From Amphibalanus amphitrite (Eukaryota > Arthropoda > Thecostraca > Balanomorpha > Balanidae), in the NCBI RefSeq assembly GCF_019059575.1, contig NW_024882759.1, positions 62,001 to 126,000 on the forward strand: 64,000 nucleotides of DNA, given 5' to 3'. The notes beneath the pieces were generated by a model. That model ran no database searches and was not told the DNA's origin. It was given only the letters and a program-made list of their open reading frames with translations. The number at the start of each line of letters is the position of its first letter. Within the stretch, counting starts at the first letter, position 1. Below are positions 3,110-63,570 of the stretch, piece by piece. Made by a program: the position numbers and the translations under genes.

Positions 3110-3620
3110 CCTCAGCGCGTGCGCACGTGCGCACCCCTTTTTCACATCTCGGGATTGGCTGTGCCAATCGCGCCCATATTTGGTATGCTGAATGGCATCA
3201 TGTTTATATGCAAATTGCACAGGTTGGCAAAAGCATTGAGCTGCACGTGCGCACGTGCGTGCCCCTTTTTCATATCTGGGGATCGGCTGGGCCGATCGCG
3301 CTCATATTTGGTATGCTGAATGACGCCATGTACATATGAGGATTGAACAGGTCTTTAAAGGCATTGGTCTGCACGTGCGCACGTGCGTACCCCTTTTTGG
3401 CATCTTGGGATCGGCTGGGCCGATAGCGCTCATATTAAGTATGCTGAATGACACCAAGTTTATATTCAGATTGCACAGGTCAGCAAAAGCATTGATCTGC
3501 ACGTGCGCACGTGCGCACCCCTTTTTCATATATGGAAATCGGCTGGGCCGAAAGTACTTATATCAAGCATGCTGAATGATACCATGCTTATATGTAGAAT
3601 TCACAAGTCGGCAGCGGTGT
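3110..3620. repeat. Tandem repeat, about 128 bp unit, 4 copies
   Basis: Four diverged direct copies with a period of about 125-130 bp. Each holds a doubled E-box palindrome (CACGTGCGCACGTGCG or a close variant), then CCCCTTTTT, then GGGATCGGCTGGGCCGAT, then CATATTTGGTATGCTGAATGA. A short run of GTGCACCCCCAT motifs follows at 3,640-3,700. A partial second array is at 5,295-5,500, and very diverged relatives are at 49,490-49,760. Confidence 0.8.
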
Positions 3621-3839: not shown

Positions 3840-4640
3840 CCCAAAAATGGGTGAAAGGGGCACCCCGGCAAAAGCGGGACTTTCTCAGCAAAAGTGGAGC
3901 GCCCGAGGCAGAAGTAGGGCACCTCCAACGTAGGTTGGGATCAGTCAAGCATAAGACTGGCGCCCCAGCGGAGGAGAGGCGCCCCCAGTAGGAATGAGGC
4001 ACCTCAAGCATAGATTCGCCCAGTAGAAGAGCTTCCTCAGTAGAACACGGGCGACTCCAGCAGAAAGGGGCGCCTCACCAGAAGAGGGGTGCCCTAGCAG
4101 AAGAAGGACACCCTAGCAGAAAGGGGGCGCCCCACCAGAAGAGGGATGCTTCCAGAAGAAGAGAGGCACTCCAATATAAATGGGGCACCTCAAGCAAAAG
4201 TTGGGCTCGTCCAGCAGTAGTGGGGCGCCCCCAGAAGAAGAGGAGCGCTCCCAGCAGAAAGGGGCGCCACACCAGAAAGGGGCGCCCTACCGGGAGAGGG
4301 ATGCCTAAAAAAGAGAGGCGCCCTTATACAAAAGGGGCACCTGGAGCAAAAGTTGGGCTCGTCGAGCAGCAGTGGGGCCGGGGGCGCCCCCAGCAGAGGT
4401 GGTGAGACGCCTTTAGCAAAAATAGGGCATACCCGGCAAGGGAAATGTCAGACTCCAGCAGAAAGTGAAACCCCAGCAGAGGAGGAGCGCCAATCAGAAG
4501 TAAGTCTCGCCGAGCAGAATGAGGGGTGGCCTCAGCAGGAGAGAGGGAGAGGCGACCCCAGCAGTAGAAGGGCGCCCAATGAAAAAGGTGATTCCAGCAA
4601 AAGTGGGTCTCGCCAGTCGACGAGCATAAAAAGGGCACCC
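3840..4640. repeat. Degenerate minisatellite, about 26-30 bp unit
   Basis: Imperfect reiterations of a unit resembling GGGGCGCCCCAGCAGAAGA, with substitutions and small indels, fill about 800 bp. The open frames across it on both strands are by-products of the repeat and show no protein family signature. Confidence 0.7.
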
Positions 4641-23764: not shown

Positions 23765-24952
23765 ATAACCCTCGCCCCGTTGGGGGGGGGGCCATTTTGG
23801 CCCCCCCCCCCTGTGGTTTTTCCTGAATAGCAAGAAAACGGCGGCGCGCAGCGCCGCCAAATTTTCAGTACCTTCCCGGGCATCAATTTGACACCTTCAC
23901 ACCAAATTTCAAGTCTTAGGTCACCTTAGGTCAGGAGTTATTGAGGTCAAACTAAGGTCATGTTCGAGCAAAAATGAGCAAAAAACATGCAATCTTGAAA
24001 CGCTCACCAAATCTACAGTTATCAAGCAATTTCAAAGTTCTTTATATGGTCTAGTAGACAAAAAGCGGCGCTACAAAACTGCTATCTCGGATTTTCAAAA
24101 TTTTTGGTTTTGACCAAAAAAAAAATCAAAAAATTGATTTTTTTTGAAAAACTTTGAAAAAATCCAAAATTTTTCCGAATTTCGAAAAAAACCGGAATAT
24201 ATGTGATAGTCCCAGCGCTCTTCTATATACATACCAAATTTCAGGTCGATATCTCGTTTTTTGGCCAAGTTATAGCGAAAAAACTGTTCAAAAATGATGA
24301 CGTCAAATTTTTGAACTCAATTTTTAGCAATTCTAGACCACGTACGGCAAAACAAAGACCACCATTGAACTCCCCGTGACGAGCTGCATCGATTCGATAC
24401 CCATTTTATGCAAAAATATTAACTTTGAAATTTGACCTAATTTGACCTGACCTTGACCTGACCTTGACCTGACCTTGACCAAAACGTGATTTAAGCTGGC
24501 CCCAAAGGCTGCCTGACCCATATAATCGCATTTGTCATGTAAAATGGACCATAAAACATGTATCACACGACACTTTAATATTGTGACCCCCCCGTGACCT
24601 GACCTCTGTGACCTGACCTGGTATCAGTGACCTCAAATAGCAAAATATGTGTTTGAAGAACATTTCCCCATCGATGATTTTCAATGAAATGCATTTTACT
24701 CGATTTTACAACGCATTTCTTGAAGTGCCTGTAAACGGTGAAAATTGGACCTTTGACCTGACCTGTGACGTCATCGGTTTGACCTAGGTCAATAAAATTG
24801 GGTCACAAGGTAGTTCCCCGTTGGGGCTATCCAACGCCGTTTACCGCTTGTCGCTATGTTGCGTGGTTCTCGAGATCTTAGGGGGGGGGCCAAAATGGCC
24901 CCCCCCCCAACCGGGCGCGTTGCTCGGCAGAGCCCAACGGGGCGCGGGATAA
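23765..24952. mobile_element. TTAA-family element (ATAA target) in E75 intron
   Basis: Flanked by ATAA on both sides (23765-23768, 24949-24952), with terminal repeats CCCTCGCCCCGTTGGG and, inverted, CCCGCGCCCCGTTGGG. Just inside each end is a G-run/C-run hairpin around CCATTTTGG or its inverse. It is non-coding. The right half holds about 18-20 TGACCT/AGGTCA half sites by eye, several as TCAAGGTCA on the minus strand (24,425-24,485). It is related to the elements at 46819, 52837 and 55178 by the subterminal GTTTTTC...GAATA motif. Confidence 0.75.
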
Positions 24953-46818: not shown

Positions 46819-48895
46819 TTAACCCACGCCCGGCTGGGGGTCCTGGATTTCCACGCCCTGCTGGGGGGGGGGGGGGGGTGTTTGAACCCCCCCTTGATAC
46901 GCAGAAGGCGGCGTTCGAAAGAGCGCCAAAAATAATGACGATATCACTTCAGTCACTTTTTCGGTCAGGTCAAAGGTCAGGTCACCAGGGGTCATTGAAG
47001 GCAAAATTTCGACGATTTTCAGGTCGAATGTCGACAATTTTTTCTCAGATTTGACCTAACGTCAACGGTTTTGCCTGCAGGGGGCAAACACTGCAAAAAT
47101 AGCCGATTTTTTCGGAAACAGTTTTTCTGCAATAATTTATGACCCAAGCCTTGTACGAGCTTACTTTTACCGGCATCGTGTTCCTCTCGTCAAGACGCAT
47201 CGAATGAACTTTAACTTGACCTTGAAAGGTCAACTTGAAAATTTGACCTCAGGTCAAGGTCATGACCTGACCGGAAAAGGTCATGTTGCATATCAGTCGA
47301 TCCGTATCGTCGAGCTGAACACATCTAAGGCGTTTTCACCGCTCTAGCATGCCTCTATCAAAAGTTATTTGCGAAAAACTGTTAGACACTATTTGTGACC
47401 TGAGACGACCTCAGGGGCATAAATAGGGGTCACGGACACCATTTTCATGTTCAGTGTGTTTTAACTGCTTGTAATTCAGTGTTTGGGAGTGTTTATAATG
47501 ACTTTCGTCCAAAAGAGACGCATTTCAATTTTCTCCCATTGCACAGTGGCCCTTTTTCAGAATTAGCACGCATAAATTCAAAATATTTTTTCTCTTCTTT
47601 TGAGTAAAAAGCAGTCTAATCGTGTGCAAAACATTCCAAACTATCCGATGGTGCCATTTTTACCTCCTAAAAAATAATTATCTTTTGTAAAACTGACCGC
47701 AAAATAGAAGTTTGTCGAGAGGCGCGCGGACACCACCGGCGGACCTTAAAAAGTAGGGTGAGATGAACATCAATTTGTAAGGCTTTCGGCGAGAAAATGT
47801 TAAAAATTAGTGGCACGGCTGTGAAGCTGAGTTTACGTAGAAGCCCTAGAAACCACAATTTTCATTGTATAAACTTCAATAGACCACTTTTGCCGAATAT
47901 TGTGGACACAATAACAGGACAATTATTAACTGGAGATGGCGGCATACATATGAAGCTTTATGTTAAGTAGCACACTCTGGAACATGTCGTATTATACATC
48001 GTTCGAATCGCCGATCTCTTCTGACCATGTCCACCAAAGGGCATCGCGCCATTTTGCGCCATTTTGCTTCTACGGTGGATAATGTGAGCCAGTTCAGTCC
48101 GCGAGCGGCTGTGGCTCCTGTTCGATACGACTAAGCTCATTGACCTGGCTCGAAGCTGGTGTCACCTGGTGTGCGCCTAAATGTGGCTCGACTTTTGCCA
48201 TAAGATGTGCTAATTGAAATTATACTAACGGTGGCTGGCAACAGCTGTAGATGCGGTCACGTGACGCCCTGGGGCGTCCTGGCGGTCAGTGCAGCGCGGT
48301 CGGCTGGCGGGCTCGCCACACTTGCGTTCGGAGCGGCCTGGCCGGCGGGCGAGCCGTGCGAACGTGCGCCAAATCTTGGCCCGAGCGGCCTGTCGCTGTT
48401 GGGCCGAATCTCCTTGGGCAGTTCGTTTCTTTTCTTCTCTTTGCATTGGCAGGGAATACGTCCTTGATCACGTGGTGATGTCTTGCACCACTTTCAGGTA
48501 TTGTGGGAATTAATGCGTGCTAATTCTGAAAAAGGGCCACTGTGCATTGACTTATAATGGGGAGGTCGCTAAATTGACCTGACCTTAGGTCACCGATATC
48601 AAAATTCTGAGATATACATTTTATAGATACTGTTACCCTTATCAATCGCTGAAAGTTTCAAAGCGATCGGTCACTCGGTGTAGCAATGGCAGACATTGAA
48701 ACTTTTATGAGGTGAGGTCACTTCAAGTGACCTGGTGACCTGACCTTGAATGACCTTGGTCTGAAATTTTCACAACATGTGTAGAATTGATGTATAATAA
48801 GGTGTACCAAAAACGGCGGCACCGTTTTTGAGATATTCGCGAAAAACCACAAGGGGGGTGTTCAAACATCCCCCCCCCAGCAGGGCGCGGGTTAA
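46819..48895. mobile_element. TTAA-family element, about 2.1 kb
   Basis: TTAA at 46819-46822 and 48892-48895. The ends CCCACGCCCGGCTGGG and, inverted, CCCGCGCCCTGCTGGG match at 13 of 16 positions. Inside each end there is a G-run/C-run hairpin around GTTTGAA or TTCAAAC. The subterminal GTGGTTTTTCGCGAATA motif (right end, inverted) links it to the other copies. AGGTCA/TGACCT sites cluster at 46,965-46,985, 47,215-47,285 and 48,575-48,770. It is interrupted by a second element at 47541-48545. Confidence 0.75.
47541..48545. mobile_element. Nested TIR element of about 1 kb
   Basis: The terminal inverted repeats span about 35 bp and are essentially perfect; the left begins GCACAGTGGCCCTTTTTCAG and the right is its inverse. 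The flanking ATT on both sides may be a 3-bp target duplication. The interior is G+C-rich (48,240-48,430) and non-coding. It lies wholly inside the TTAA element 46819-48895, so it inserted later. The superfamily is not clear. Confidence 0.65.
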
Positions 48896-50590
48896 CCTCT
48901 GACTTCAAAATTAAGTAACAGTCACAGATGTCCTAAGCCACTGCAAACTACCTGTCCTACATCACACTTTGTCTGCTGGTGGCTGTGGGATCACTTGCCA
49001 CACTGCTCATGCCCCTCCCAGTTGATTGTCTTTTTCACTTCCCATTGATGCTCCAATTACCACTGAGATAGAGCAGCTCAATGCTCATCCTCCGACCTCC
49101 ATCCTCAGTATCAAAGCCTTTGCTTTCTCTTTCTTTACCTGGGTCTTTCTCATCTTTACCATTATTATTGCTGGAGATGCTAGAGAATTTATACTCCATG
49201 CCAATGACAACAACAAAAAAAAAAGTTGTGACATAACATGATTATTTTAACTGGGACTAAACTCTTAAGTGTCTGCTATAATGCTTCATTGCTTTATTTA
49301 ACCATTGGCATAACAAATACAGTTCACAGCAGCAAAATGCTCATTTTAGGCCCAAAACTGGTCTATGATCAAAGTCACCCCGGGTATCATTGTCACCCTG
49401 GTGTAGGGTATCTCGGTAGTTACTTGGCTGATTGTGCTGAAGCCTGAAACTCAGCATATATGTAGGCACCCACTAGGCATTGCATTTCCATTTCCCACAG
49501 TTGTGGTATTGCTGCATGTGTGCAAGTGCAGGGGTCAATTCCAGATTTTGAGAATGGCTGGACCAATTGCGCTCAAATTTAGTAACCGATCAGGGACCAG
49601 TTAGTAGGGTGCCGTGCAAAAGTAACTTGGGATCCAACTTGCATGCGCACATGTGCATGGTGCCCTTCCAGATCTTGAGAACGGCTGGGCCAATTGTGCT
49701 CCAATTCGGCACATTGCTGCCTGCTGGAGAACGGATGGTAGCATTCTATACAAAATTCCAACAGCATACCAACAGCATCATATTGCTGGCTGGGAAATAA
49801 TGTTAAGTAGATGCGAATTCCACTCAAATTCAGTAAAAATTGCCCGTTAACATTACGCCCCGAAACCGAAAAAAAAACATTCTCGTTTATCATTAAGTTA
49901 ACCAGACCATTTGTGACGCCCTTCAGCGAGGAAAAACAATTTCTCTTAAGGACTCGTATCAGGGCCATCTATAGACTCGTATACGAAAATGTTACTCACT
50001 AAAAAACGTCTTTCAGCACATATCTTCAAAAATTGTGGAAAATTACAAGTCCACACCAACCACAATCGAAGGTAGACGAAGAGTGGCGCGCCAAAAAACG
50101 CTTAGCAGCGTGTTTCACGATTTGTGCGGGAATTTTATAACAAATGACGCTGCTAAATTATAACAGCTCATTTTTAAGTAAAAAAGGAAGGATGATAGAG
50201 TTTCATGGTGTCCAAAATTTGCTACACAAACTTTAAGAGGTTATAAAACTTCCCGTACTATACTGTTGTGTAATCTTAGATCATAGGTGCGGGAGCCGGG
50301 GGGCAGTGGGGGCAGCTTGCCCCCCAACTCTGGGGCCTTGGGCGCGGTGGCCCCCACAGCTTTGAGACGGGTCACGGAATACCACACTTTTTTTGCAAAT
50401 GTTTTCTTTTTTTGTTGAAAAAGCCGAGGGGTGAAAAATAAGTGGCCTAAAACCGGTGAGAAAACTAGATTTGGGGGTACCCTAGGTAAATCTCTATTAT
50501 GGTGTGCCCCCCCCCCCCCCCCCCCCAGTCGGAAAGTGGCGGAAAGTGGCTACTTCGAGTGGCGGATCACCAGCTCAGGCACCATCTCAC
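48896..50590. other. Intergenic repeat-rich DNA
   Basis: Holds very diverged relatives of the 128-bp repeat (49,490-49,760; GAACGGCTGGGCCAATTG) and a G-run/C-run segment (about 50,285-50,530) resembling MITE ends without definable borders. No gene was recognised. Confidence 0.45.
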
Positions 50591-50601
50591 CAAAAGAAAA
50601 C

Positions 50602-51264
50602 CAGAGGGGTGTTCACGGGCACCGCACACTGCTGCGTGCGGTGTGTGCGCTGCGTCCAGCAGGCGTGGGGGTAGGGGATGGGTAGGCGGCTCTGACGTCA
50701 CGGCTGCGTGCGGTGGACGGTCCGCTGTGGCCAGTCCCGACCGGCCACAGCGGTCGCTGTGTGCGGTGACGCAAGGCTGACGTAGGGACGCAGTGGGCGG
50801 AGCTTGGAGGCTGTGTGCGGTCCGACCGCACACAGGAGAGCTGTTCACGGGCCCTGTGTGCGGTCGGACCGCACACAGCCTCCAAGCTCCGCCCACTGCG
50901 TCCCTACGTCAGCCTTCCGTCACCGCACACAGCGATCGCTGTGGCCGGTCGGGACTGGCCACAGGGGACCGTCCACCGCACGCAGCCGTGACGTCAGAAC
51001 CGAACAGCTCTCCTGTGTGCGGTCGGACCGCACACAGCCTCCAAGCTCCGCCCACTGCGTCCCTACGTCAGCCTTCCGTCACCGCACACAGCGATCGCTG
51101 TGGCCGGTCGGGACTGGCCACAGGGGACCGTCCACCGCACGCAGCCGTGACGTCAGAACCGCCTACCCATCCCCTACCCCCACGCCTGCTGGACGCACCG
51201 CACACAGCGCACGCAGCAGTGTGCGGTGCCCGTGAACACCCCTAGGGTCCGTGAACAGCCCTCT
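50602..51264. mobile_element. Foldback element with partly duplicated arm
   Basis: Ends CAGAGGGGTGTTCACGG and, inverted, CAGAGGGCTGTTCACGG. The left arm (about 50,606-50,838) is the reverse complement of the right arm (about 51,005-51,243), and the inner part of the right arm occurs a second time in direct orientation at about 50,843-51,003. Each arm carries TGACGTCA, GTGTGCGGTCGGACCGCACA and AGCGATCGCT palindromes. It is non-coding and no clear target duplication was found. Confidence 0.75.
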
Positions 51265-51569
51265 GCTTTCCCACGGAACTTTTCTCGGTTTTCATCGAGC
51301 TCTACTAGTGATTTGACCCCAGCTATAGCCACTAAACGGCTGCCGGCATTCAAATCTTCCCGAGCCCCAGGGACGACGGACCGCGCTCCCGCGCCGCGCG
51401 CAGAGCCCCACGGACGCCAGCCGGCGGCCGTGTCGCCTCACCCTCCCCTCCAGCTGAGAGCCCCGCCGGCCCGCGTGGGTGGGGAGCGGCCGCTCGCGCT
51501 GCCCGCGTCCCACGGCGCGCCGCCGGCGCCCGCGGTGGCCGCGGCAGGGGCAGGAGCCGACCGGAAACG

Positions 51570-51680
51570 ACAGGAAACCACCATCGGAATCTTCGTATCG
51601 GAAGCTTGAATATTCAAAGCCTCAAGCCTAAACTATTGGACCTGACCTATGAACTCCGCCAAAACAATTACGATGTCGTA
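51570..51680 (+). pseudogene. LINE ORF2 first segment (endonuclease start)
   Basis: Reads RIGSLNIQSLKPKLLDLTYE and on to NYDVV, the opening strand of the apurinic-like endonuclease of CR1/jockey-type LINEs. It is cut at a TA at 51679-51680 by the element 51681-54056 and resumes at 54059. Sequence before 51,570 may be the 5' part of the same LINE, but I cannot show it. Confidence 0.75.
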
Positions 51681-52246
51681 CAGTCGTGTACAGGTTGATG
51701 GTCCCCTACTCTTTATCCACCGGGTTCCTATGGCTCAGCATTGGCAGCAGCCGCCTGGTACCGGTAGGCTGTGCCGCATGACCCGAGAGTGAAGCGGCAC
51801 AGCCTACCCACACTGTATGACACCGGCTCGGGTCGCCTGGTAGAGCGATTTGACCGGACGCTGCGTTACACCGGCTGGGGGAGGGGGGGGGGTAAGGGTC
51901 AGGCCTGTCTATTTGGCTCGGCTCGGTGGATGAGGCGGGCTGGAGTGTGGTGTGGGGCGGGGGTGATGTGGGGAGGGAGTGAGCGGACCTGGGGCTGGGT
52001 GTGAGTGGTCACTTGTCGCGTAGAACCGATCGTAATCCACCCTCCAAAAATTCGCTTTAGAGATATTCACAAAACCCAGGGGGGTTCAAACACCCATCTC
52101 CCAAGTGGGGTGCGGAAGGACAGGTAAGGGTCCATACGGTCTCCTCATGAATTGCAGCAAAGAAAGAAAACAGACCTGTCACCAGATAATCTTTCTGAAA
52201 AGTGGACTAATCGCATAGCCTCGGACACAGAAATAAACATCCAGCA

Positions 52247-52325
52247 CGCGAAGCGTCTCGAACCGGGCCTCTCACTACCGGCCAGTTTGACAGTCTAGCA
52301 CTCCTACGCTGAGCTACACCGGATA
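52247..52325 (-). repeat. tRNA-derived SINE head or pseudo-tRNA
   Basis: On the minus strand GTAGCTCAGCGTAGGAG (A-box-like) is followed about 45 bp later by GGTTCGAGACG (B-box-like). This resembles an RNA polymerase III promoter from a tRNA, but a clean cloverleaf is not evident. Confidence 0.5.
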
Positions 52326-52419
52326 GTTGCCACGGCCGGGGCAAAGTCTGGCCGGACGGGCGGCGGGGCCGGGAGGTCGGCAGCAAAGTCAATGAATGTT
52401 TTTGTGGTTTCGGGTGCCG

Positions 52420-52500
52420 GTCGCTCTAGCTTGGTGGAATGATGATGGATCATTGGTAAAACTTTCAACGTTGAGTCCCGGTTCGAGCCTCATCGGGGCT
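52420..52500 (+). repeat. tRNA-derived SINE head or pseudo-tRNA
   Basis: CTAGCTTGGTGG (A-box-like, 52426-52437) and GGTTCGAGCC (B box, 52480-52489) at tRNA-like spacing. It is probably a SINE relic and not a working tRNA gene, since the stems do not pair well. Confidence 0.45.
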
Positions 52501-52836
52501 CCGGCTACTTTTCCGAGTTAGGATCTGGTTTGATTTTAGTGGTTGCGAGCCATTTATACGGTTTTATATCTACATGTCGATTGTCGATTGATTGATTGAT
52601 TCATTCATTCGTTCATTTAATACATGTCGACATTTAGCATACGAATTGACATCCAGGACCAATCCGATCAATCTACCATTTTCATAAGCGTATTGCCTAA
52701 ATATCATGCATATATGTGGCACAAGACCTATGGTTGCCTCGATACCGTGCAAAATCACGTTTTGCACAATGCACAAGTAAATTATATTCGCTGGGTCGTC
52801 CGTGCATTGTGCTTAGCAAAAACAGGAATGCAGTTG

Positions 52837-53735
52837 TTAACCCTCGCATGTGTAGGGGGGGGGGGGTCGGATGGACCCCCCCCATGGTTTTTCGCGAATA
52901 ACTCGCGTAAAAAGCGGCCGATCGCGACGAAACTTTCAGTACCCTCGCATTGATCAATTTTACACCTACCCTGAAAATTTCATGACCCTGACCCAAATGA
53001 CCTTTGACCTGTGACCTCTTTTCCGAGACCATGTTTGGCCGGAATCGCGATTCGGCGTACGTCGGCTCGCATTAGCCGTGCGTTTGCAAGCTTTTCGTGG
53101 TTTCAAACGTTCAAACATGTGATTTGATGTTGCTCCCATGCATTAGGGTGGGTGTCAAGGTCACCTGAAGGTCAGGTCAGGTCATTGACCTTTGGTGACC
53201 TCGGATGACCTCGGTTCACTTTTTCGAGTTTTACATGTTTCTAGGCTAGTTTTTGGAGCTGAACTCGAATTTAGCAACCATTTGAACATTTACGAAGTAG
53301 TTTTGGTGCCTTCGTAACATGTTACGAAGCTGTCAGAGGCGGTTGACACGTACTACGAATACCCGTCACAACGCCTGCTGGTTGACCTGACCTGACCTGA
53401 CCCGACCTGGTCTAAATGCTTAAAGACATCATCTCTGATCAAAACTAACACGATATTCGTGATCAGCACCCCGAAAAACCCCTTAGCAGCCACACTTTAC
53501 GACTTTCTAATAGGTCCCGATTTTCCCGACTTTGGGTCATTGACCTGACCTGGAAGGTCAACCAATGACCTAGGACCTTAAAATTGGGTATCATCGGCTT
53601 CCTCTCGTCACGGGCAACACGCTCGTTTTTTCCGCGAAGCTCTAGCTCGATCAGGGGCCAAACGGCAAGGGGGGGTCCAACCGACCCCCCCTACACATTA
53701 GAAGCTGGAAAACGCCGCACACATGCGAGGGTTAA
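52837..53735. mobile_element. TTAA-family element, 0.9 kb, best-preserved copy
   Basis: TTAA at 52837-52840 and 53732-53735; termini CCCTCGCATGTGT and a perfect inverse. TTAA targets and CCC-starting ends are features of the piggyBac superfamily, so a piggyBac-like MITE is the likeliest class. Inside each end is a G-run/C-run hairpin around TCGGATGGA or TCCAACCGA, followed on the left by GGTTTTTCGCGAATAACTCG. TGACCT/AGGTCA half sites cluster at 52,990-53,020, 53,155-53,220, 53,380-53,410 and 53,530-53,580. No open frame of note. Confidence 0.8.
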
Positions 53736-54058
53736 GCGACGCAAAATGTGCAATGCAGCAAGTGACCACACACACCCGCCCAGCCCCCATGGTCCACAAA
53801 CACGCCCCACACCACTCGCCAGCCCACGCCAACCACCGAGACGAGCCCCTCCCCCCGCGCTGGTCTGACGCGACAGCTGGTCTACAAAGCGCTCCACCCG
53901 GCGACCCGAGCCGATGTCAAACAGCGCGGGTAGACTGTGCCGCTTCACTCTCGGGTCATGCGGCACAGCCTACCGGTACCAGGCGGCTGCTGCCAATGCT
54001 GAGCCATAGGAACCCGGTGGATAAAGAGTAGGGGACCATCAACCTGTACACGACTGTA

Positions 54059-55177
54059 CTACTGTCGGAGACCTGGCTACGCCCTTCTACGCCAAACAGA
54101 CTTTTAGTGCTCCCTGGCTACTCCCTCAGCCGCACAGACCGACCTGATGGCCGCGGGTACGGCGGCGTCGCGATCGCAACAAAATCGGATATCACATCAG
54201 TGCCCATCAAGTTCCCAAGTTTCGAGCGCGGCTGCAGCCAGCTCGAGTCAAAGTGGGCGCTGCTCAAGCTCGACAAAGGTCGTCAACTCATCGTATGTTC
54301 TTTATATCGCCCCCCTCGCCACTCCGAAACCGCTTTATGTGCCGATTTTGCCGACCTTGAAAATCAGTTACAAAGAGTACTTGTCGATCACCCTAGGACC
54401 CCGCTCGCCATCTGCGGTGATATAAACTGTGACCTGGCACCTGCTGAAGAAAGAACCCAACTTTCGTGCACGACAGCATCTCAGCAGCTTCCTATCGGAC
54501 TACTCCCTAGACCAGCTAGTAACAACTCCGACTTTCACTTCCGGTTCGCTCCTAGACGTGTGTATGGTGAACAAAGTGGACCTCTTCTCTAACACCCGTG
54601 TTGAGTTTTGTCATTTTAGTCCGCATAAATTTATTAGCGTAGATATCAATGTTCCCAAACTGCGTCCGAAGCCTACAATCATCTCAGCTCGTTCGCTCAA
54701 CCGTGTTGATGTCACTGCCCTTGATTCTGATCTGGAGCTTGTCGACTGGGAGCCTGTGTTTACCGCCGCGACTGTTAGTGATCAGTGGGATGCATTTGTG
54801 TCTAATTTTTTGCCTATTATCGACGACCACGCCCCACTCAAGCGCATTACCATTCGGAACCCCACAGCGCCCCCGGCCTCTGCTGCCACACGGAACCTTA
54901 TGTCCCAGCGCCGCGCCTCGCTACGACTGTCCGGTCGTCAGTCGACAGCTTACAAGGAGCTGAATTCGCTCTGTTCGGGCCGCACTGCGTCGCGACCGGC
55001 GAGAAGAGCTACTGAGAAATATCTGTGAGCGGGGTCCCAATAAGGTCTGGCAGTCTATCAGGACAGTTGTAGCAGGGGAAAAGGACGGTCCTAGTGTGCA
55101 GCCAAATTTACCCGCCGATGAACTAAATTCATTTTTCGTCTCTGTCGGACCTCGCATCGCTGCGGAGGTCCGGTCTC
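54059..55177 (+). pseudogene. LINE ORF2, endonuclease segment
   Basis: Continues the endonuclease from 51,680: LLSETWL at the junction, then YGGVAIATKSD, WALLKL, VCSLYRPP, the catalytic LAICGDINCD, and later TFTSGSLLDVC. At least two frameshifts (near 54,450-54,470 and 54,975) break it. The segment ends VWQSIRTVVAGEK...NSFFVSVGP, the usual linker before the reverse transcriptase. It is interrupted at TTAA (55178) by the next element. Confidence 0.85.
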
Positions 55178-56413
55178 TTAACCCGGCACCGCCTGGGCTA
55201 TTTCCGTACCCACATCAGCCTGGGGGGGGGGGGGGGGGGTCGGATCCGACCCCCCCCCCCTGTTATCTCGAGAACCAATGGTCGTATCGAGCCCCGCGAG
55301 GCGGCGTTCGAAAGGTCTCTACGAGACCTTCCCAAAGCACTCTTAAGATTTTAAGATTGAGGTCAACTTTCGGGTCAAGGTCAGGTCAAAGGTCAAATTC
55401 AGGGGTTTTGCATGATTAGGCTTACGGACAGCGGAATCGATAGCTGCTGCTCGAAACTCACCACAAATGACCTCAAAGACCTAGTGAAGGTACCATGTGC
55501 GTATAGGGGTCATACTAAGTACGGGTCAAGGTCAGGTCAGGTCACGAAAGGTCACGGTTTTCACTTTCTGCTACATGGGCGTGCGACACATGTTTTATGG
55601 CTTATTTTTGACGCCAAATCCGATGGTAATGGTTATATGTGACCCCAAGTCACTGTGCTGGTGATAAGTGTGCATTGAAAGCATAAAAAATCGTTTATAC
55701 CATACATAACTAAACGAGGGCTAAGAAAAAAAGTCAATTTTTCAACTTTTTATTTTTGACATAAAAATGCACTTTTCTAGACCAGGTTTGTCCCAGGAAT
55801 CTAGTGGTGCCATTTGTTTTCACATGCGATGTTCAGAAATGCCTCTAATTCGCGAAAATGCTGATGACGTCACCATGCCCTATGCATGTTGGAGCTATTT
55901 TTTACAATTTGGGGGTCAAAAATCAAGAAAGAAAGTTGAAATTTGGGACATCTAATGTTCTAATAGAGCTCTATAACATATATTCCGGTTTTTTGGAAAT
56001 TCTCAAAATTTTGGATTTTATTAGCTGTTTTCCAAAAAATATAGTTTTTTGAATTTTTAGGGGTGAAAAACGCATTTTATGGAAAATCCGAGATAGCCAT
56101 TTTAAAGAACGCGTTGAGCTGCGTCTTTTCATGTCCTTAATTTGCAATTTGCTTAAAACCTCGATTTTTGGCGATTTTTTAAACATTTACCATTTTTTGA
56201 CTGAAAACGCCATGTAGTTACATCACTAAAATCGATATATCTCAGAAATTTATAAAAAATTTTTTTCTTAAAAATTGCACAGGAGACGTCAAATTGATGG
56301 GGGAGAAGGTATGCGAAGTTTCAAGTTGATAGCGCAAGCGGTTCATGAGTTATTCAAGAAAAACGGAGGGGGGGTCGGATCCGACCCCCCTCCCCCAGGC
56401 GGTCGCGGGTTAA
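55178..56413. mobile_element. TTAA-family element inserted in the LINE
   Basis: TTAA at 55178-55181 and 56410-56413; ends CCCGGCACCGCCTGGG and, inverted, CCCGCGACCGCCTGGG. Both ends have an inner G-run/C-run hairpin around TCGGATCCGA, a perfect palindrome. AGGTCA/TGACCT sites lie at 55,358-55,395 and 55,525-55,555. With one TTAA retained the LINE frame reads across the site, which fixes the borders exactly. Confidence 0.85.
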
Positions 56414-58238
56414 CACCACTACCGATCTGAACGTTCGCCTCCCCCGGGTCGGTGCATGTCGTTTCCAGCTCCGCGCGGTCACTCTCGGCGAACTCGGTCA
56501 CACTATCTTTGGCATGCGCAACTCAGGCGCCAGTGGTACTGATGGCATTTGCATTCGAATGTTAAAGTCCGGCTTCTCAGCTATCGGTCGCGTCATACTT
56601 TACATTATCAATACGTGTATTACCAACTCCGATATCCCCGAGTCCTGGAAACATTCCACAGTCCACCCCATCTTCAAATCTGGCAGCCCCTCAGACCCCA
56701 CCAACTTTCGACCAATCTCATTAGTCCCCGTGATTATGAAGGTTGTGGAACGCCTTGTACATCAACAGCTTTACCACTACCTCTCAAATAACTATCTCCT
56801 TGCCTCCTCGCAGCATGGTTTTCGCCCCCGACACTCCACAGAGACCGCTCTGCTGTCCGTCACAGACCAAATCCTCGCAGCCTCTGATAGGGGAGAACTT
56901 TCACTGCTGTGTCTCCTTGATTTAAGCAAATGCTTTGATGTCATCGACCACGAACTTTTACTTCAAAAACTGGCTATGCACGGGATCGAGACCTCTTGGT
57001 TTTCTGCTTTTCTCACGGGACACACCCAGAGCGTGTCCCTATCCTATCTAACGGCGCCGGAGGTAGAGTACTGTCGCGGCCGCTTCCAAATAATATGGGC
57101 GTCTTCCAAGGATCTGCCCTGGGATCGTTACTCTTCACCATATTTTCGAACAACCTCTCGCTATACGCAGGTGACGCCACCGTTTTCCAATATGCGGACG
57201 ACACCCAGGTTCTAGTGAGCGGCCGTGCCGACGACCTCAGATCGCTTATCTCTCGCATGGAAGCTTCACTCGCATCAATCAGTGACTGGTTCTGTCTTCA
57301 CGCCCTTAAGCTAAACGCAAACAAAACTCAACTCATGGTTTTTGGCAGCAGGCAAAATTTACGGAAAGTACCCGACTTCAGCGTCTCTCTTCGTGACTCT
57401 GTGTTGCAGCCATGCGAGCAGGTGGGGAATCTGGGTGTTGTCTTTGACAGCGCCCTGTCCTGGGATGCACATGTGTCCGAGCTTAGTCGTCGGTGTACTG
57501 GCTTGTTGATCGGACTGTCTCACGCACGAAATTGTCTCCCTGACGGTGTCATTAAAGTCCTCGTTACATCTCTGGTCATATCACGAATCAACTACTGCCT
57601 CACTGTGTACGGTAACGGGACTCAGAAAAAATTTTGACCGACTCCAGAAAATTTTGAACTTTGCCGCTAGAGTGATCTTCGGACGGCGTAAGTTTGACCA
57701 CGTCTCGGACCTGCGCGACAGACTTGGCTGGCTATCATCAAAATCCATGTCAGATTACCTGACACTCACGATCGCGCAAAAGGTCATTAAGCATGAAGAG
57801 CCCGAGAACCTCGCTGCACTGTTCGTCCCCAACCAAAATTTTCGAGACAGGCACACACGGCAGGATCCTCTCCTTCATCTTCCCCGACCGAGGCTTGAAA
57901 CTGGAAAACGGCGTTTTGAGTACCACGCCGCGGCGCTATTGAATAGCCTCCCACCCCAGGTAGTGCAGCTGCCACCTGCCAGCTTCGCCCGGTCTGCCAG
58001 GGCCGCGCTGATTAACAAATCCCCGCTACGCCACGTGCGTGAAGTTAGCGTCGTATTCCGCGACGGATTCAGCGTCGAGTCCGAATTTCAACTAAACCCA
58101 ACCTATCCGATGCAGTTTGGGACGCTGATTCCGAATATCGTATTCATTTTAAATTTCAAGGTCATCTTCAAGGTCAAATCACGGATTGAAATTGAGTCCC
58201 CGATTTTTCCTACACCGATCGTCCGATCCGATTTCTGA
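56414..58238 (+). pseudogene. LINE ORF2, reverse transcriptase segment
   Basis: Shows GASGTDGICIRMLK, NFRPISLVPV, ASSQHGFRPRHSTETAL, LCLLDLSKCFDVIDHELLL, the catalytic FQYADDTQVLVSG, LKLNANKTQLMVFG and a C-terminal region with YHAAALLNSLP. This is the order of CR1/jockey-group LINE reverse transcriptases. Frameshifts near 57,040 and 57,620 separate three frames, so the copy is dead. The last codons run straight into the satellite that follows. Confidence 0.9.
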
Positions 58239-61200
58239 AAGTCGCATTCGAAAGCTAGGGTCAGAATCTCGAATTCCCTAATATATACCTTATTAAAAAT
58301 ATTTGACCTTAAAGTCAAATCACGGATTGAAATTTTGAGTCCCCTATTTTTTCTACACCGATCGTCCGATCCAATTTCTGATGGTCGCATGCGATAGCTA
58401 GGGTCAGAATCTCGAGTTCCCTAATATATACCTTATTAAAAATATCTGACCTTAAAGGTCAAATCACGGATTGAAATTTTGAGTCCCCTATTTTTCTACA
58501 CCGATCGTCTGATCCAATTTCTGATGGTCGCATTCGATAGCTAGGGTCAGAATCTCGAGTTCCCTAATATATACCTTATTAAAAATATTTGACCTTAAAG
58601 GTCAAATCACGGAGTGAAATTTTAGGTCCCCCTATTTTTTCTACACCGATCGTCCGATCCAATTTCTGATGGTCGCATTCGATAGATAGGGTCAAAATCT
58701 CGAGTTCCCTTATATATACCTTATTAAAAATATTTGACCTTAAAGGTCAAATTACGGATTGAAATTTTGAGTCCCCCTATTTTTTCTACACCGATCGTCC
58801 GATCCAATTTGTGATGGCCGCATTCGATAGCTAGGGTCAGAATCTCGAGTTCCTTAATATATACCTTATTAAAAATATTTGACCTTAAAGGTCAAATCAC
58901 GGATTGAAATTTTGAGTCTCCAATTTTTTCTACACCGATCGTCCGATCCGATTTCTGATGGTCGCATTCGATAGCTAGGGTCAGAATCTCGAGTTCCCTA
59001 ATATATACCTTATTAAAAATATTTGACCTTAAAGGTCAAATCACGGATATTCGACCTTAAAGGTCACATCACGGATTGAAATTTTGAGTCCCCCGATTTT
59101 TTCTACACCGATCGTCCGATCCGATTTCTGAAGGTCGCATTCGATAGCTAGGGTCAGAATCTCGAATTCCCTAATATATACCTTATTAAAAATATTTGAC
59201 CTTAAAGGTCAAATCACGGATTGAAATTTTGAGTCCCCTATTTTTTCTACACCGATCGTCCGAAACGATTTCTGAAGGTCGCATTCGATAGCTAGGGTCA
59301 GAATCTTAAATTCCCTAATATATACCTTATTAAAAATATTTGACCTTAAAGGTCAAATCACGGATTGAAATTTTGAGTCCGCCTATTTTTTCTACACCAA
59401 TCGTCCGATCCAATTTCTGATGGTCGCATTCGATAGCTAGGGTCAAAATCTCGAGTTCCCTAATATATACCTTATTAAAAATATTTGACCTTAAAGGTCA
59501 AATCACGGATTGAAATTTTGAGTCCCCCTATTTTTTCTACACCGATTGTCCGATTCAATTTCTGATGGTCGCATTCGATAGCTAGGGTCAGAATCTCGAG
59601 TTCCCTAATATATACCTTATGAAAAATATTTGACCTTAAAGGTCAAATCACGGATTGAAATTTTGAGTCCCCCATTTTTTCTACACCGATCGTCCGATCC
59701 GATTTCTGATTGTCGCATTCGATAGCTAAGGTCAGAATCTCGAGTTCCCTGATATATACCTTATAAAAAATATTTGACCTTAAAGGTCACATCACGGATT
59801 GAAATTTTGAGTCCCCCGATTTTTTCTACACCGATCGTCCGATCCAATTTCTGAAGGTCGCATTCGATAGTTAGGGTCAGAATCTCGAATTCCCCAATAT
59901 ATACCTTATTAAAAATATTTGACCTTACAGGTCAAATCACGGATTGAAATTTTGATTATACACCGATCGTCCGATCCGATTTCTGAAGGTCGCATTCGAT
60001 AGCTAGGGTCAGAATCTCGAATTCCCTTATATATACCTTATAAAAAATATTTGACCTTAAAGGTCAAATCACGGATATTTGACCTTAAAGGTCAAATCAC
60101 GGATTGAAATTTTGAGTCCCCCTATTTTTTCTACACCGATCGTCTGATCCAATTTCTGATGGTCGCTTTCGATAGCTAGGGTCAAAATCTCGAGTTCCCT
60201 AATATATACCTTATTAAAAATATCTGACCTTAAAGGTCAAATCACGGATTGAAATTTTGAGTCCCCTATTTTTTCTACACCGATTGTCCGATCCAATTTC
60301 TGATGGTCGCATTCGATAGATAGGGTCAGAATCTGGAGTTCCCTAATATATACCTTATTAAAAATATTTGACCTTAAAGGTCAAATCACGGATTGAAATT
60401 TTGAGTCCCCCAATTTTTTCTACACCGATCGTCCGATCCGATTTCTGATGGTCGCATTCGATAGCTAGGGTCAGAATCTCGAGTTCCCTAAACTATACCT
60501 TATAAGAATATTTGACCTTAAAGGTCAAATCACGGATTGAAATTTTGAGTCCCCTTATTTTTTCTACACCGATCGTCTGATCCAATTTCTGATGGTCGCA
60601 TTCGATAGCTAGGGTCAGAATCTCGAGTTACATATATATACCTTATTAAAAATATTTGACCTTAAAGGTCAAATCACGGATATTCGACCTTAAAGGTCAC
60701 ATCACGGATTGAAATTTTGAGTCCCCCGATTTTTTTCTACACCGATCGTCCGATCCAATTTCTGAAGGTCGTATTCGATAGCTAGTGTCAGAATCTCGAA
60801 TTCCCTAATATATACCTTATTAAAAATATTTGACCTTAAAGGTCAAATCACGGATTGAAATTTTGAGTCCCCCTATTTTTTCTACACCGATCGTCTGATC
60901 CAATTTCTGATGGTCGCATTCGATAGCTAGGGTCAGAATCTCGAGTTACCTAATATATACCTTATTAAAAATATTTGACCTTAAAGGTCAAATCACGGAT
61001 ATTCGACCTTAAAGGTCACATCACGGATTGAAATTTTGAGTCCCCCGATTTTTTCTACACCGATCATCCGATCCGATTTCTGAAGGTCGCATTCGATAGC
61101 TAGGGTCAGAATCTCGAATTCCCTTATATATACCTTATTAAAAATATTTGACCTTAAAGGTCAAATAACGGATATTTGACCTTAATGGTCAAATCACGGA

Positions 61201-61965
61201 TTGAAATTTTGAGTCCCCCTATTTTTTTCTACACCGATCGTCTGATCCAATTTCTGATGGTCGCACTCGATAGCTAGGGTCAGAAATTCGAGTTCCTTAA
61301 TATATACCTGATTAAAAATATTTGACCTTAAAGGTCAAATCACTGATTGAAATTTTGAGTCCCCCGATTTTTTCGACACCGATCGTCCGATCCGATTTCT
61401 GAAGGTCGCATTCGATAGCTAGCGTCAGAATCTCGAATTCCCTAATATATACCTTATTAAAAATATTTGACCTTAAAGGTCAAATCACGGATTGAAATTT
61501 TGAGTCCCCCGATTTTTTCTACACCGATCGTCCGATCCGATTTCTGAAGGTCGCATTCGATAGCTAGGGTCAGAATCTCGAATTCCCTATTATATACCTT
61601 ATTAAAAATATTTGACCTTAAAGGTCAAATCACGGATTGAAATTTTGAGTCCCCTTTTTTCTACACTGATCGTCCGATCCAATTTCTGATGGTCGCATTC
61701 GATAGCTAGGGTGAGAAATTCGAGTTTCCTAATATATACCTCATTAAAAATATTTGACCTTAAAGGTCAAATGACGGATTGAAATTTTGAGTCCCCCTAT
61801 TTTTCTACACCGATCGTCCGATCCAATTTCTGATGGTCGCATTCGATAGCTAGGGTCAGAATCTCGAGTTCCTTTATATATACCTTATTAAAAATATTTG
61901 ACCTTAAAGGTCAAATCACGGATTGAAATTTTGAGTCCCCCAATTTTTTCTCCACCGATCGTAAT
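58140..61965 (+). repeat. Satellite array, about 145-bp unit
   Basis: About 25-27 direct copies with a period near 145 bp. Each has TTTGACCTTAAAGGTCAAAT, then CACGGATTGAAATTTTGAGT, CTACACCGATCGTCCGATCC, GGTCGCATTCGATAGCTAGG and ATATATACCTTATTAAAAAT. Some units carry an extra short segment repeating only the GACCTTAAAGGTC palindrome plus CACGGATAT. Copies differ by a few percent. Non-coding. Confidence 0.95.
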
Positions 61966-62532
61966 CGGATCGGACGATCGGTGTAGAAAAAATCGGGGGA
62001 CTCAAAATTTCAATCCGTGATTTGACCTTTAAGGTCAAATATTTTTAATAAGGTATATATTAGGGAACTCGAGATTCTGACCCTAGCTATCGAATGCGAC
62101 CATCAGAAATTGAATCGGACGATCGGTGTAGAAAAAATAGGGGGACTCAAAATTTCAATCCGTGATTTGACCTTTATGGTCAAATATTTTTAATAAGGTA
62201 TATATTAGGGAATTCGAGATTCTGACCCTAGCTATCGAATGCGACCTTCAGAAATCGGATCGGACGATCGGTGTAGAAAAAATCGGGGGACTCAAAATTT
62301 CAATACGTGATGTGACCTTTAAGGTCGAATATCCGTGATTTGACCTTTAAGGTCAAATATTTTTAATAAGGTATATATTAAGGAACTCGAGATTCTGACC
62401 CTAGCTATCGAATGCGACCATCAGAAATCGGATCGGACGATCGGTGTAGAAAAAATAGGGGACTCAAAATTTCAATCCGTGATTTGACCTTTAAGGTCAA
62501 ATATTTTTAATAAGGTATATATTAGGGAACTG
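61966..62532 (-). repeat. Same satellite, inverted orientation
   Basis: At about 61,966 the array turns: the unit is broken in the middle of CACCGATCGT and continues as its reverse complement for about four units, making a long inverted repeat. It ends in mid-unit where the next element begins. Confidence 0.93.
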
Positions 62533-63570
62533 CAGTGGCGCAGCCAGGGGGGGTGAAAGGGGTGAGATCTCACCCCCGTCTCTTATCCTAGGGGCCCACC
62601 GTTGATTCGAACTGTAACGTTATGCAGCCTGACAATTTTTTATCAGTCTAATGTCAAGGTCCGTCATAGGACTGAAAAACAGTTTTCAGGCCTGATAGCC
62701 CCCCTTTAGGATTTATAGTCCCATTTTATGATTTAAGGGGGTACATCCAAGGCCCGATTAACCTAATCCAAGGCACAGGAGGGCCCGTTTCATGGCATGA
62801 GAGGGCCATTTCAGGCCTGAGAGCGCCCATTTCAGGTCTGTGAGGGCCCATTTCAGGCCTGAAAGGGCCCAGTTGAAGCTTAAAAGGGCCCATTTCAGGC
62901 CCTAGAGGGCCTGTTTGAGGCTTGAGAGGGGCCCATTTCAGGCCTGAGAGGGCCCATTTGATGCCTGTGAGGGCCCATTTCAGGCCTGAAGGGGTCCATT
63001 TCAGGCCCTAGAGGGCATGTTTGAGGCTTGATAGGGCCCATTTCAGGCCTGAGAGGGGCCCATTTCAGGCCTGAGAGGGGCCAGTTCAGGCCTGAGGGGG
63101 CCCATTTCAGGCTTGAGAGGGCCCATTTCATGCCCTAGAGGGCCTGTTTGAGGCCAGAGAGTTTGAGGCCAGAGAGGGCCCGTTTGAGGCCAGAGAGGGC
63201 CCGTTTGAGGTCTGAGAGGGCCCGTTTGAGGCCTGAGAGGGGCCCATTTCAGGCATAAGAGGCACCATTTCAGATCTGAGATGGCCCAGTTACGGTATGA
63301 GGGGGCCCTTTTTCGACATGATAGGGACCATTTCCGGGCTGAGGGGGCCCATTTCAGGTCTGAGAGGGCCCATTTCAGGTCTGAGAGGGCTAATGTCAGG
63401 CCTGAGAGGGCCCATTTCAGGCCCTTGAGGTCCTGTTTGAGGCCTGAGAGGGGCCCAATTCAGGTCTGAGAGGGCTAATGTCAGGCCTGAGAGGGCCATT
63501 TCAGGCCTGAGAGGGGCCCATTTCAGGTCTGAGAGGGCCCAGTTCAGGCCTGAGAAGACTCATCCCAGGA
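62533..63570. mobile_element. Element start followed by 21-bp minisatellite
   Basis: CAGTGGCGCAGCCAGGGGGG, a common left end of hAT-like repeats, interrupts the satellite. From about 62,770 to 63,560 there are some 35 degenerate copies of a 21-bp unit, GAGAGGGCCCATTTCAGGCCT. The period is a multiple of three, so several frames stay open (MGPLRPE-type heptads), but these are not genes. The right end of the element was not found. Confidence 0.65.

Follow-up and report, generated by a model that had tools for sequence, protein, structure and literature searches.

In this study, a family of TTAA-flanked elements with a G-run, a short palindromic core and a C-run inside each end was analysed in the genome of Amphibalanus amphitrite. 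Four copies (c1–c4) lie in one stretch of 64,000 nucleotides (G000:C1262:62001-126000, hereafter the window), and the whole genome of 807.55 Mb in 2,644 contigs was searched. The copies are very probably (probability about 0.88) non-autonomous cut-and-paste transposons of the piggyBac superfamily. The family is a new and strongly diversified lineage of a known superfamily, and not a new kind of element. A first-pass annotation, made from the letters of the window, had pointed to piggyBac on the grounds of the TTAA target and the CCC tips. This assignment held: a transposase family with the domain PF13843 (DDE_Tnp_1_7) has such an end as its exact right boundary, and empty sites showed the TTAA duplication. 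The observations of that annotation were partly confirmed, being real with corrections, and its interpretation was partly supported. The two ends of each element are asymmetric, which it had overlooked; they are called the short end and the long end below.

A piggyBac transposase with a matching long end

PF13843 matched 116 places in the genome, and the flanks were inspected at 40 of them, namely the 30 best and 10 further places. At 25 of the 30 best places, at least one ordinary piggyBac end such as CCCATTAGTGCC or CCCTTTACCGGG was present. None of these 30 had a G-hairpin end of its own, and some lay within or beside copies of the G-hairpin family. In locus L028, for example, an ordinary piggyBac element with CCCATTAGTGCCC ends was located between both ends of a G-hairpin family copy. 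Another ordinary piggyBac element was located 160 bp inside a c4-type long end in L022. At three of the ten further places (C44:1061854, C527:292116, and C1173:158057), the 3′ flank ended in a long end of the G-hairpin family, about 1.0 kb from the domain. The three 3′ flanks were near-identical, and divergence began directly after GGGTTAA. The first-pass annotation had proposed a search for a piggyBac-like transposase with the same ends; for the right end, an exact boundary of this kind was found in these three copies. The 1.2 kb upstream of the three transposase copies was near-identical from its first base, so the element extends further.

The C-terminus of the transposase, read from L081, was TTARARCATCVADQQGAGYKRSRHTNVNKVKSRCCKCTMPVCRKHSKRSLPLCNSCDAGPSGVE. 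It contains C-x2-C pairs and histidine and has the look of the cysteine-rich domain (CRD) of piggyBac. The N-terminus had no match in Pfam. The C-terminus was complete at eight places with 98–100% identity, and partial pieces were found on C387, C31, C153, and C235 (59–94%). Its relatives were a full-length sequence on C778 (55%), a sequence on C702 (40% over residues 3–57), and weaker ones. A G-hairpin near the C702 transposase was assigned to a neighbouring element, since the end faces away. The 3′ sequence of the C778 transposase (L036) was 90% identical to c3 over 63 bp. The same stretch also matched other loci at 82–92%, so this match does not tie the C778 transposase to c3. At positions 1–41 of L036 (C778:131668-135726), the right end of another family copy stands at a TTAA in c3-3′-like sequence. 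Family copies thus seem to use internal TTAA sites of one another as insertion targets.

Target site duplication and empty sites

With the flank letters unconstrained, identical 4-bp flanks were obtained in 31 of 32 rows (30 with TTAA/TTAA, and c1 with ATAA/ATAA); among the 32 rows, L039 and L041 duplicate L069 and L071, and L046 contributes a wrong pairing. The flanks of L068 were TTAA/TTAG. A further element in L069, near position 3200, had CTAG on both sides as judged by eye. In one subfamily, the first T of the target was replaced by A, C, or G at 99 ends; among the 30 with letters shown, 22 were ATAA, 6 CTAA, and 2 GTAA. Such ends amount to roughly 2% on the assumption that this subfamily accounts for about half of the 7,839 matches to TTAACCCNCGCCCNGNTGGGGGG, as it does in the 100 matches listed.

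When the flanks of c4 were joined by a single TTAA, an open frame ran across the junction. Among the 40 matches listed for this empty site, 27 aligned over all 300 joined bases at 96–98%, and seven more crossed the junction at 73–98%. The window itself, C258, and C248 were split at or near the junction. On C248 (G000:C248:614988-617086), the c4-site sequence was split (query 1–159 and 152–300) by an insertion of different size. The appearance and the copy number of the interrupted frame suggest that it is retrotransposon-like; a Pfam search with two short pieces of it gave no match. The 4-bp TTAA duplication that characterises piggyBac was thus present and was also shown by empty sites. The elements target TTAA, rarely ATAA or CTAG, and duplicate the target. 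The first-pass annotation had correctly named a TTAA or ATAA target for the window copies (ATAA/ATAA in c1 and TTAA/TTAA in c2, c3, and c4).

From the autonomous element to non-coding derivatives

Derivatives of the transposase element were searched for with a joined query consisting of the short end and of 5′ and 3′ pieces of the autonomous element. At least ten copies had both blocks complete, with block starts 451–516 bp apart compared with 3,140 in C527. The gene is therefore missing between the blocks. On C264, a single strand carried the short end, then part of the 5′ block and then the 3′ block, all within 0.7 kb. The short end of the joined query was not reported in the transposase-bearing copies themselves.

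The long-end prefix of the autonomous family had 796 + 878 matches on the two strands (1,674), and its short end TTAACCCTAGAACGCCTAGGGGG had 824 + 759 (1,583). Pairing was scored on the stretch covered by both match lists, and six short ends beyond it were omitted. A convergent long end was found within 12 kb for 90 of 94 short ends, at 919–977 bp for 79 of them. A few short ends on C2 shared one long end, and four short/long neighbours lay on the same strand. An exact copy of the long-end word ACGACC was rejected as the autonomous short end (0 matches); the actual type was CCCTAGAACGCCTA. The autonomous 3′ region was 68% identical to c3 over 137 bp and 88% identical to another non-coding element, in L069, over 247 bp. 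Derivatives of the transposase element without the gene are abundant.

Copy number and architecture of the ends

The pattern TTAACCCNCGCCCNGNTGGGGGG matched exactly at 3,887 places on one strand and 3,952 on the other; read backwards, it had no match genome-wide. A wider strict end pattern had 33,515 forward matches, and its reversed-pattern controls had 4 and 2 in the genome. The reverse count, 87,417, is probably too high, since a single site may be matched more than once in that direction. The listed forward matches, 100 in number, span about 2 Mb of one contig, which is consistent with the forward count representing distinct places. The G-hairpin elements may form a large share of the genome; 33,515 ends at about 1.1 kb each would give several percent, as a rough estimate and not a measurement.

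The end pattern allowed 12–42 nt from the tip to the G-run. In the 100 ends listed, the distance from the tip to the last G-run was 13–17 nt in 44, 39–42 nt in 56, and 18–38 nt in none. The median position of the first G was bp 14 in short ends and bp 41 in long ends, and the median palindrome centre was at bp 27.75 and bp 56.5, respectively. The G-run lies further in at the long end because the terminal word recurs 26–28 bp inward. Pairs of ends were matched by word, core, or first letters within loci, and partnerless ends were not counted; L001, L039, and L041, which repeat places elsewhere, and L002, which has one end, were excluded beforehand. Each of the 31 paired elements combined a short end with a long end (17 had one orientation and 14 the opposite one); short/short and long/long pairs did not occur among them.

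The seven letters that directly precede the G-run of a long end occur a second time near the tip. The long ends formed 27 groups at a cut of 8 mismatches, or about 23 with near relatives merged by eye. An offset of 26–28 bp gave the best match in 25 of the 27 groups. The matching total was 154 of 189 letters, whereas 5,000 permutations gave 110 on average and at most 127; the test is not fully independent, because it includes four ends added by hand and some closely related groups. Among the outer positions of 46 distinct cores, 110 of 180 paired complementarily, and shuffled cores gave a mean of 47 and a maximum of 65 (2,000 shuffles). More than 20 end types exist in the genome, each with its own word and core. 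The GTTTTTCGCGAATA/GTTTTTC-type motif inside the hairpin was found in 43 of 51 short ends and in 0 of 54 long ends typed by simple patterns. The motif described in the first-pass annotation therefore exists, as a feature of the short end and not of each end. Many long ends share a different block, e.g., TCGAGAACC...TAGCGACAAGCGG, as judged by eye.

The length was 1,153–1,201 bp in 25 of the 31 paired elements, many of which represent one subfamily by the mode of discovery. Like miniature inverted-repeat transposable elements (MITEs), the elements are non-coding and uniform in length, with high copy number and inverted ends. They are longer than typical MITEs.

AGGTCA-rich interiors and kinship of the subfamilies

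Counted on both strands, AGGTCA occurred 20, 21, 17, and 9 times in c1–c4, compared with Markov means of 0.5–0.8 and maxima of 3–4. Its density was 14.7 per kb in the 31 paired elements (599 in 40,667 bases), 1.0 per kb in a control of 30 transposase-domain stretches, and 1.7 per kb elsewhere in the window, much of the latter in a satellite near 58–62.5 kb. It was thinner around the autonomous gene, with 9 in 2,402 flank bases. The AGGTCA-rich interiors noticed earlier were thus borne out, with counts far above Markov expectation; the interiors are non-coding. The reading of these motifs as receptor half sites was correct in the enrichment but unsupported in the receptor role, as the motifs lie on both strands and also in the autonomous flanks. 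An origin of the AGGTCA interior from the satellite at 58166-62504 was dropped, as a 701-base piece of it did not match any of 13 element or flank sequences (E 0.01).

The four window copies have only short stretches in common with each other. Other subfamilies aligned with c1 across hundreds of bases at 70–74%, and the L071 element was 74% identical to c1 over 931 bp and 67% identical to the L063 element over 734 bp. As subfamilies with different words align over hundreds of bases, their interiors are related. The first-pass annotation stated that the interiors differ a lot, which applies among the window copies but not to the subfamilies that align with c1; its view that only the ends are conserved was not right.

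Features of the window

The four complete copies of the first-pass annotation were found at their positions (Table 1). All eight ends had a CCC tip and a G-run, core, and C-run, with one A interrupting the G-run in the c4 short end; the cores comprise 8–11 bases. No open reading frame of at least 100 aa lies wholly within c2, c3, or c4, and one 77-aa frame lies wholly within c1.

Table 1. Coordinates of the family copies, their ends, and a nested insertion in the window.
Feature	Position	Strand	Description
c1	23765..24952	+	1,180 bp plus a 4-bp ATAA duplication per side; short end left, long end right
c1 short end	23769..23811	+	CCCTCGCCCCGTT, then G10-CCATTTTGG-C11
c1 long end	24881..24948	-	40 nt with the end word twice, then inward G10-CCATTTTGG-C9
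c2	46819..48895	-	2,069 bp between TTAA copies; long end left, short end right; holds the nested insertion
c2 long end	46823..46893	+	40 nt with the doubled word, then G16-TGTTTGAA-C7
c2 short end	48853..48891	-	CCCGCGCCCTGCT and palindrome
Insertion nested in c2	47542..48544		1,003 bp; inverted ends CACAGTGGCCCTTTTTCAGAATTAGCACGCAT / CACAGTGGCCC...; 5-bp duplication CATTG; outside the family
c3	52837..53735	+	891 bp between TTAA copies; short end left, long end right
c3 short end	52841..52883	+	CCCTCGCATGTGTA, G-run, TCGGATGGA, C-run
c3 long end	53669..53731	-	40 nt with ATGTGT twice, then palindrome with core TCGGTTGGA
c4	55178..56413	-	1,228 bp between TTAA copies; in a retrotransposon-like frame; long end left, short end right
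c4 long end	55182..55260	+	40 nt, then G18-TCGGATCCGA-C11
c4 short end	56368..56409	-	CCCGCGACCGCCT and palindrome; one A breaks the G-run (read inward)

The insertion nested in c2 starts with CACAGTG, and we take this start and its 5-bp duplication to be reminiscent of Transib/RAG-type ends. The satellite at 58166-62504 consists of units of about 145/289 bp rich in TTTGACCTTAAAGGTCAAA, and its orientation flips at about 61962. An array of a 21-bp unit, GAGGGCCCATTTCAGGCCTGA, with about 37 copies at 76% match occupies 62779-63555. Long near-identical and partly inverted repeats rich in CCGCACACAGC were seen by eye at 50800-51240.

Proposed mechanism and alternative explanations

The hairpins are best read as the internal palindrome of the superfamily in an unusual G/C frame, and the symmetry of G-run and C-run fits a palindromic duplex site or a hairpin. 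The asymmetry with its offset of about 27 bp matches that of Trichoplusia ni piggyBac as far as described in PMC7351741; the palindromes are therefore most likely the site of the cysteine-rich domain. In the proposed mechanism, the transposase of the family would move the gene-less derivatives. A transposase dimer would grip the tip and the end word of the subfamily with its core, and two cysteine-rich C-terminal domains would bind the palindrome of G-run, core, and C-run. The second word, about 27 bp inward in the long end, would seat an inner dimer, as modelled for T. ni, and this inner site may allow the two ends to be told apart. The differing words and cores would reflect transposase lineages that drifted apart in recognition.

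Several points weigh against the piggyBac reading and this mechanism. Only 3 of the 40 inspected PF13843 places had such an end, and all three belong to one family. The match between transposase and end relies on the right end of these three copies and covers this one family; for the subfamilies to which c1–c4 belong, no transposase was linked. The C-terminal 64 residues matched no Pfam family and no PDB structure, so the assignment of a cysteine-rich domain is based on the spacing of cysteine and histidine. Two of the 27 long-end groups matched best at offsets of 31 and 33 bp, and the median palindrome centre is displaced inward by a few bp relative to T. ni. The G-run varied from 5 (the search minimum) to 18 and differed among near-identical copies, which reflects either fast slippage or an assembly miscount; unless one of these is the cause, the variability fits strict phasing poorly. 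The constancy of the G- and C-runs is partly a matter of ascertainment, because all end types were found through those runs.

Sola3 is another TTAA superfamily. A Kolobok-type family would also duplicate TTAA, and TTAA MITE families derive from Kolobok as well, according to PMC6004289. The same source gives AG/RR tips for Kolobok, whereas CCC was found at all eight window tips; a Kolobok identity was rejected on this sequence. As the transposase sharing the long end also carries PF13843, this origin is extremely improbable. Mobilisation across families by the ordinary piggyBac families of the genome, with CCCATTAGTGCC and similar ends, has several points in its favour: these families are numerous, many have open frames, and they share TTAA and the CCC tip. 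However, in six elements with both ends compared, no doubled word was detected at the threshold used and the ends had no G-hairpin, and a transposase with a matching long end exists. There is little likelihood that they move the family.

It is also quite improbable that the G-runs act as a DNA structure (hairpin, cruciform, or G-quadruplex) read by the host or the transposase instead of as a duplex binding site. In single-strand DNA folding of the eight window ends, the number of 200 shuffles that folded equally well or better was 0, 0, 0, 11, 2, 0, 7, and 69. Five ends thus clearly outperformed 198 or more of the 200 shuffles and the remaining three did less well. The G-run and C-run are kept with many different cores. 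These results agree with a structural role, but position and repeat geometry match a known protein-bound palindrome, as described in PMC7351741, and some ordinary piggyBac ends of this genome (L009 left, L035 right, and, as judged by eye, L088) have palindromes without G-runs centred near bp 24–25. The other ordinary ends tested had no such palindrome. The G-quadruplex and nuclear-receptor readings have no support. For the agreement of words between the ends, gene conversion or family-tree descent could be assumed in place of matching selected by a protein. The interiors of the subfamilies share ancestry, and common descent thus accounts for part of the agreement. Against this, the word recurs at three sites apart from each other and the core at two of them, yet the long-end spacer and the end-specific subterminal motifs stay different, and conversion tracts of about 7 bp would be required. 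Conversion or descent as the general cause is therefore unlikely.

Under the preferred piggyBac reading, a radiation of transposases, each with a private three-times-repeated word and a private core within an unchanging G/C frame, and together forming dozens of mutually exclusive systems, is conceivable and is put forward tentatively. The second transposase, on C778, with its 55% identical C-terminus and AGGTCA-type surroundings that resemble those of c3 and other subfamilies, is expected under such a radiation, but is not proof of it. If true, the radiation would provide a natural lock-and-key series for piggyBac, which is a widely used gene-delivery tool. The family may offer orthogonal pairs of end and transposase, and it allows a comparison of which bases of the ends are recognised. 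In PMC7351741, the asymmetry of the piggyBac ends was called enigmatic. Similar asymmetry in more than 20 differing end types of one genome suggests a property kept by selection, and not an oddity of one moth element.

Comparison with known systems

Among the titles listed for piggyBac ends and barnacle piggyBac, for TTAA MITEs with hairpins, and for G-quadruplex or internal-repeat piggyBac MITEs, none concerned this family. T. ni piggyBac shares the CCC tip with it. As far as described in PMC7351741, T. ni piggyBac (LE35/RE63, for left and right end) also shares the TTAA target, the asymmetric ends, a repeat at an offset of about 27–28 bp, and the palindromic internal repeat. Its right-end bp 34–63 are nearly identical to left-end bp 7–35, each end has a 19-bp palindromic internal repeat, and a CRD dimer binds left-end bp 17–33 (PMC7351741). 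The first-pass annotation held that paired end hairpins are not a textbook feature of piggyBac, which is not right given this CRD-bound palindrome in each end; the family has both the asymmetric ends and the palindromic internal repeat of the T. ni type. A 5-bp insertion in the T. ni right end, or randomising of its second motif, cut activity to about half (PMC7351741). With the native enzyme in cells, the asymmetric pair alone was both excised and integrated; left/left ends were neither excised nor integrated, and right/right ends were excised only, according to the same account. In contrast to T. ni, the palindrome in the barnacle genome lies between G- and C-runs, words and cores vary among its more than 20 end types, and the window copies are non-coding.

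The piggyBat element of Myotis lucifugus likewise has a repeated end motif and an imperfect palindrome, which lies 3 bp downstream and is CRD-bound, as described in PMC11707139. In that description, the repeats of the left end are spaced in 44-bp steps and the right end has no such palindrome, whereas the present family has the palindrome at both ends and an offset of 27 bp. In Xenopus, Kolobok/T2-MITEs share the TTAA duplication and the formation of MITE families but differ in their AG/RR tips and their transposase, according to PMC6004289. Coral CMITEs (Acropora) are TTAA-flanked, start with CCC, are linked to piggyBac-like elements, and have differing terminal inverted repeats over a related interior, as far as reported in PMC2872659. 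The tip is worded CC[C/T]T in that source; the eight window tips have CCC, and the fourth base among the family's ends varies between T, G, and A, so the agreement with this wording is partial. The length of CMITEs is about 100 bp (PMC2872659), whereas the present family is mostly about 0.9–1.2 kb long, with asymmetric ends and AGGTCA-rich interiors.

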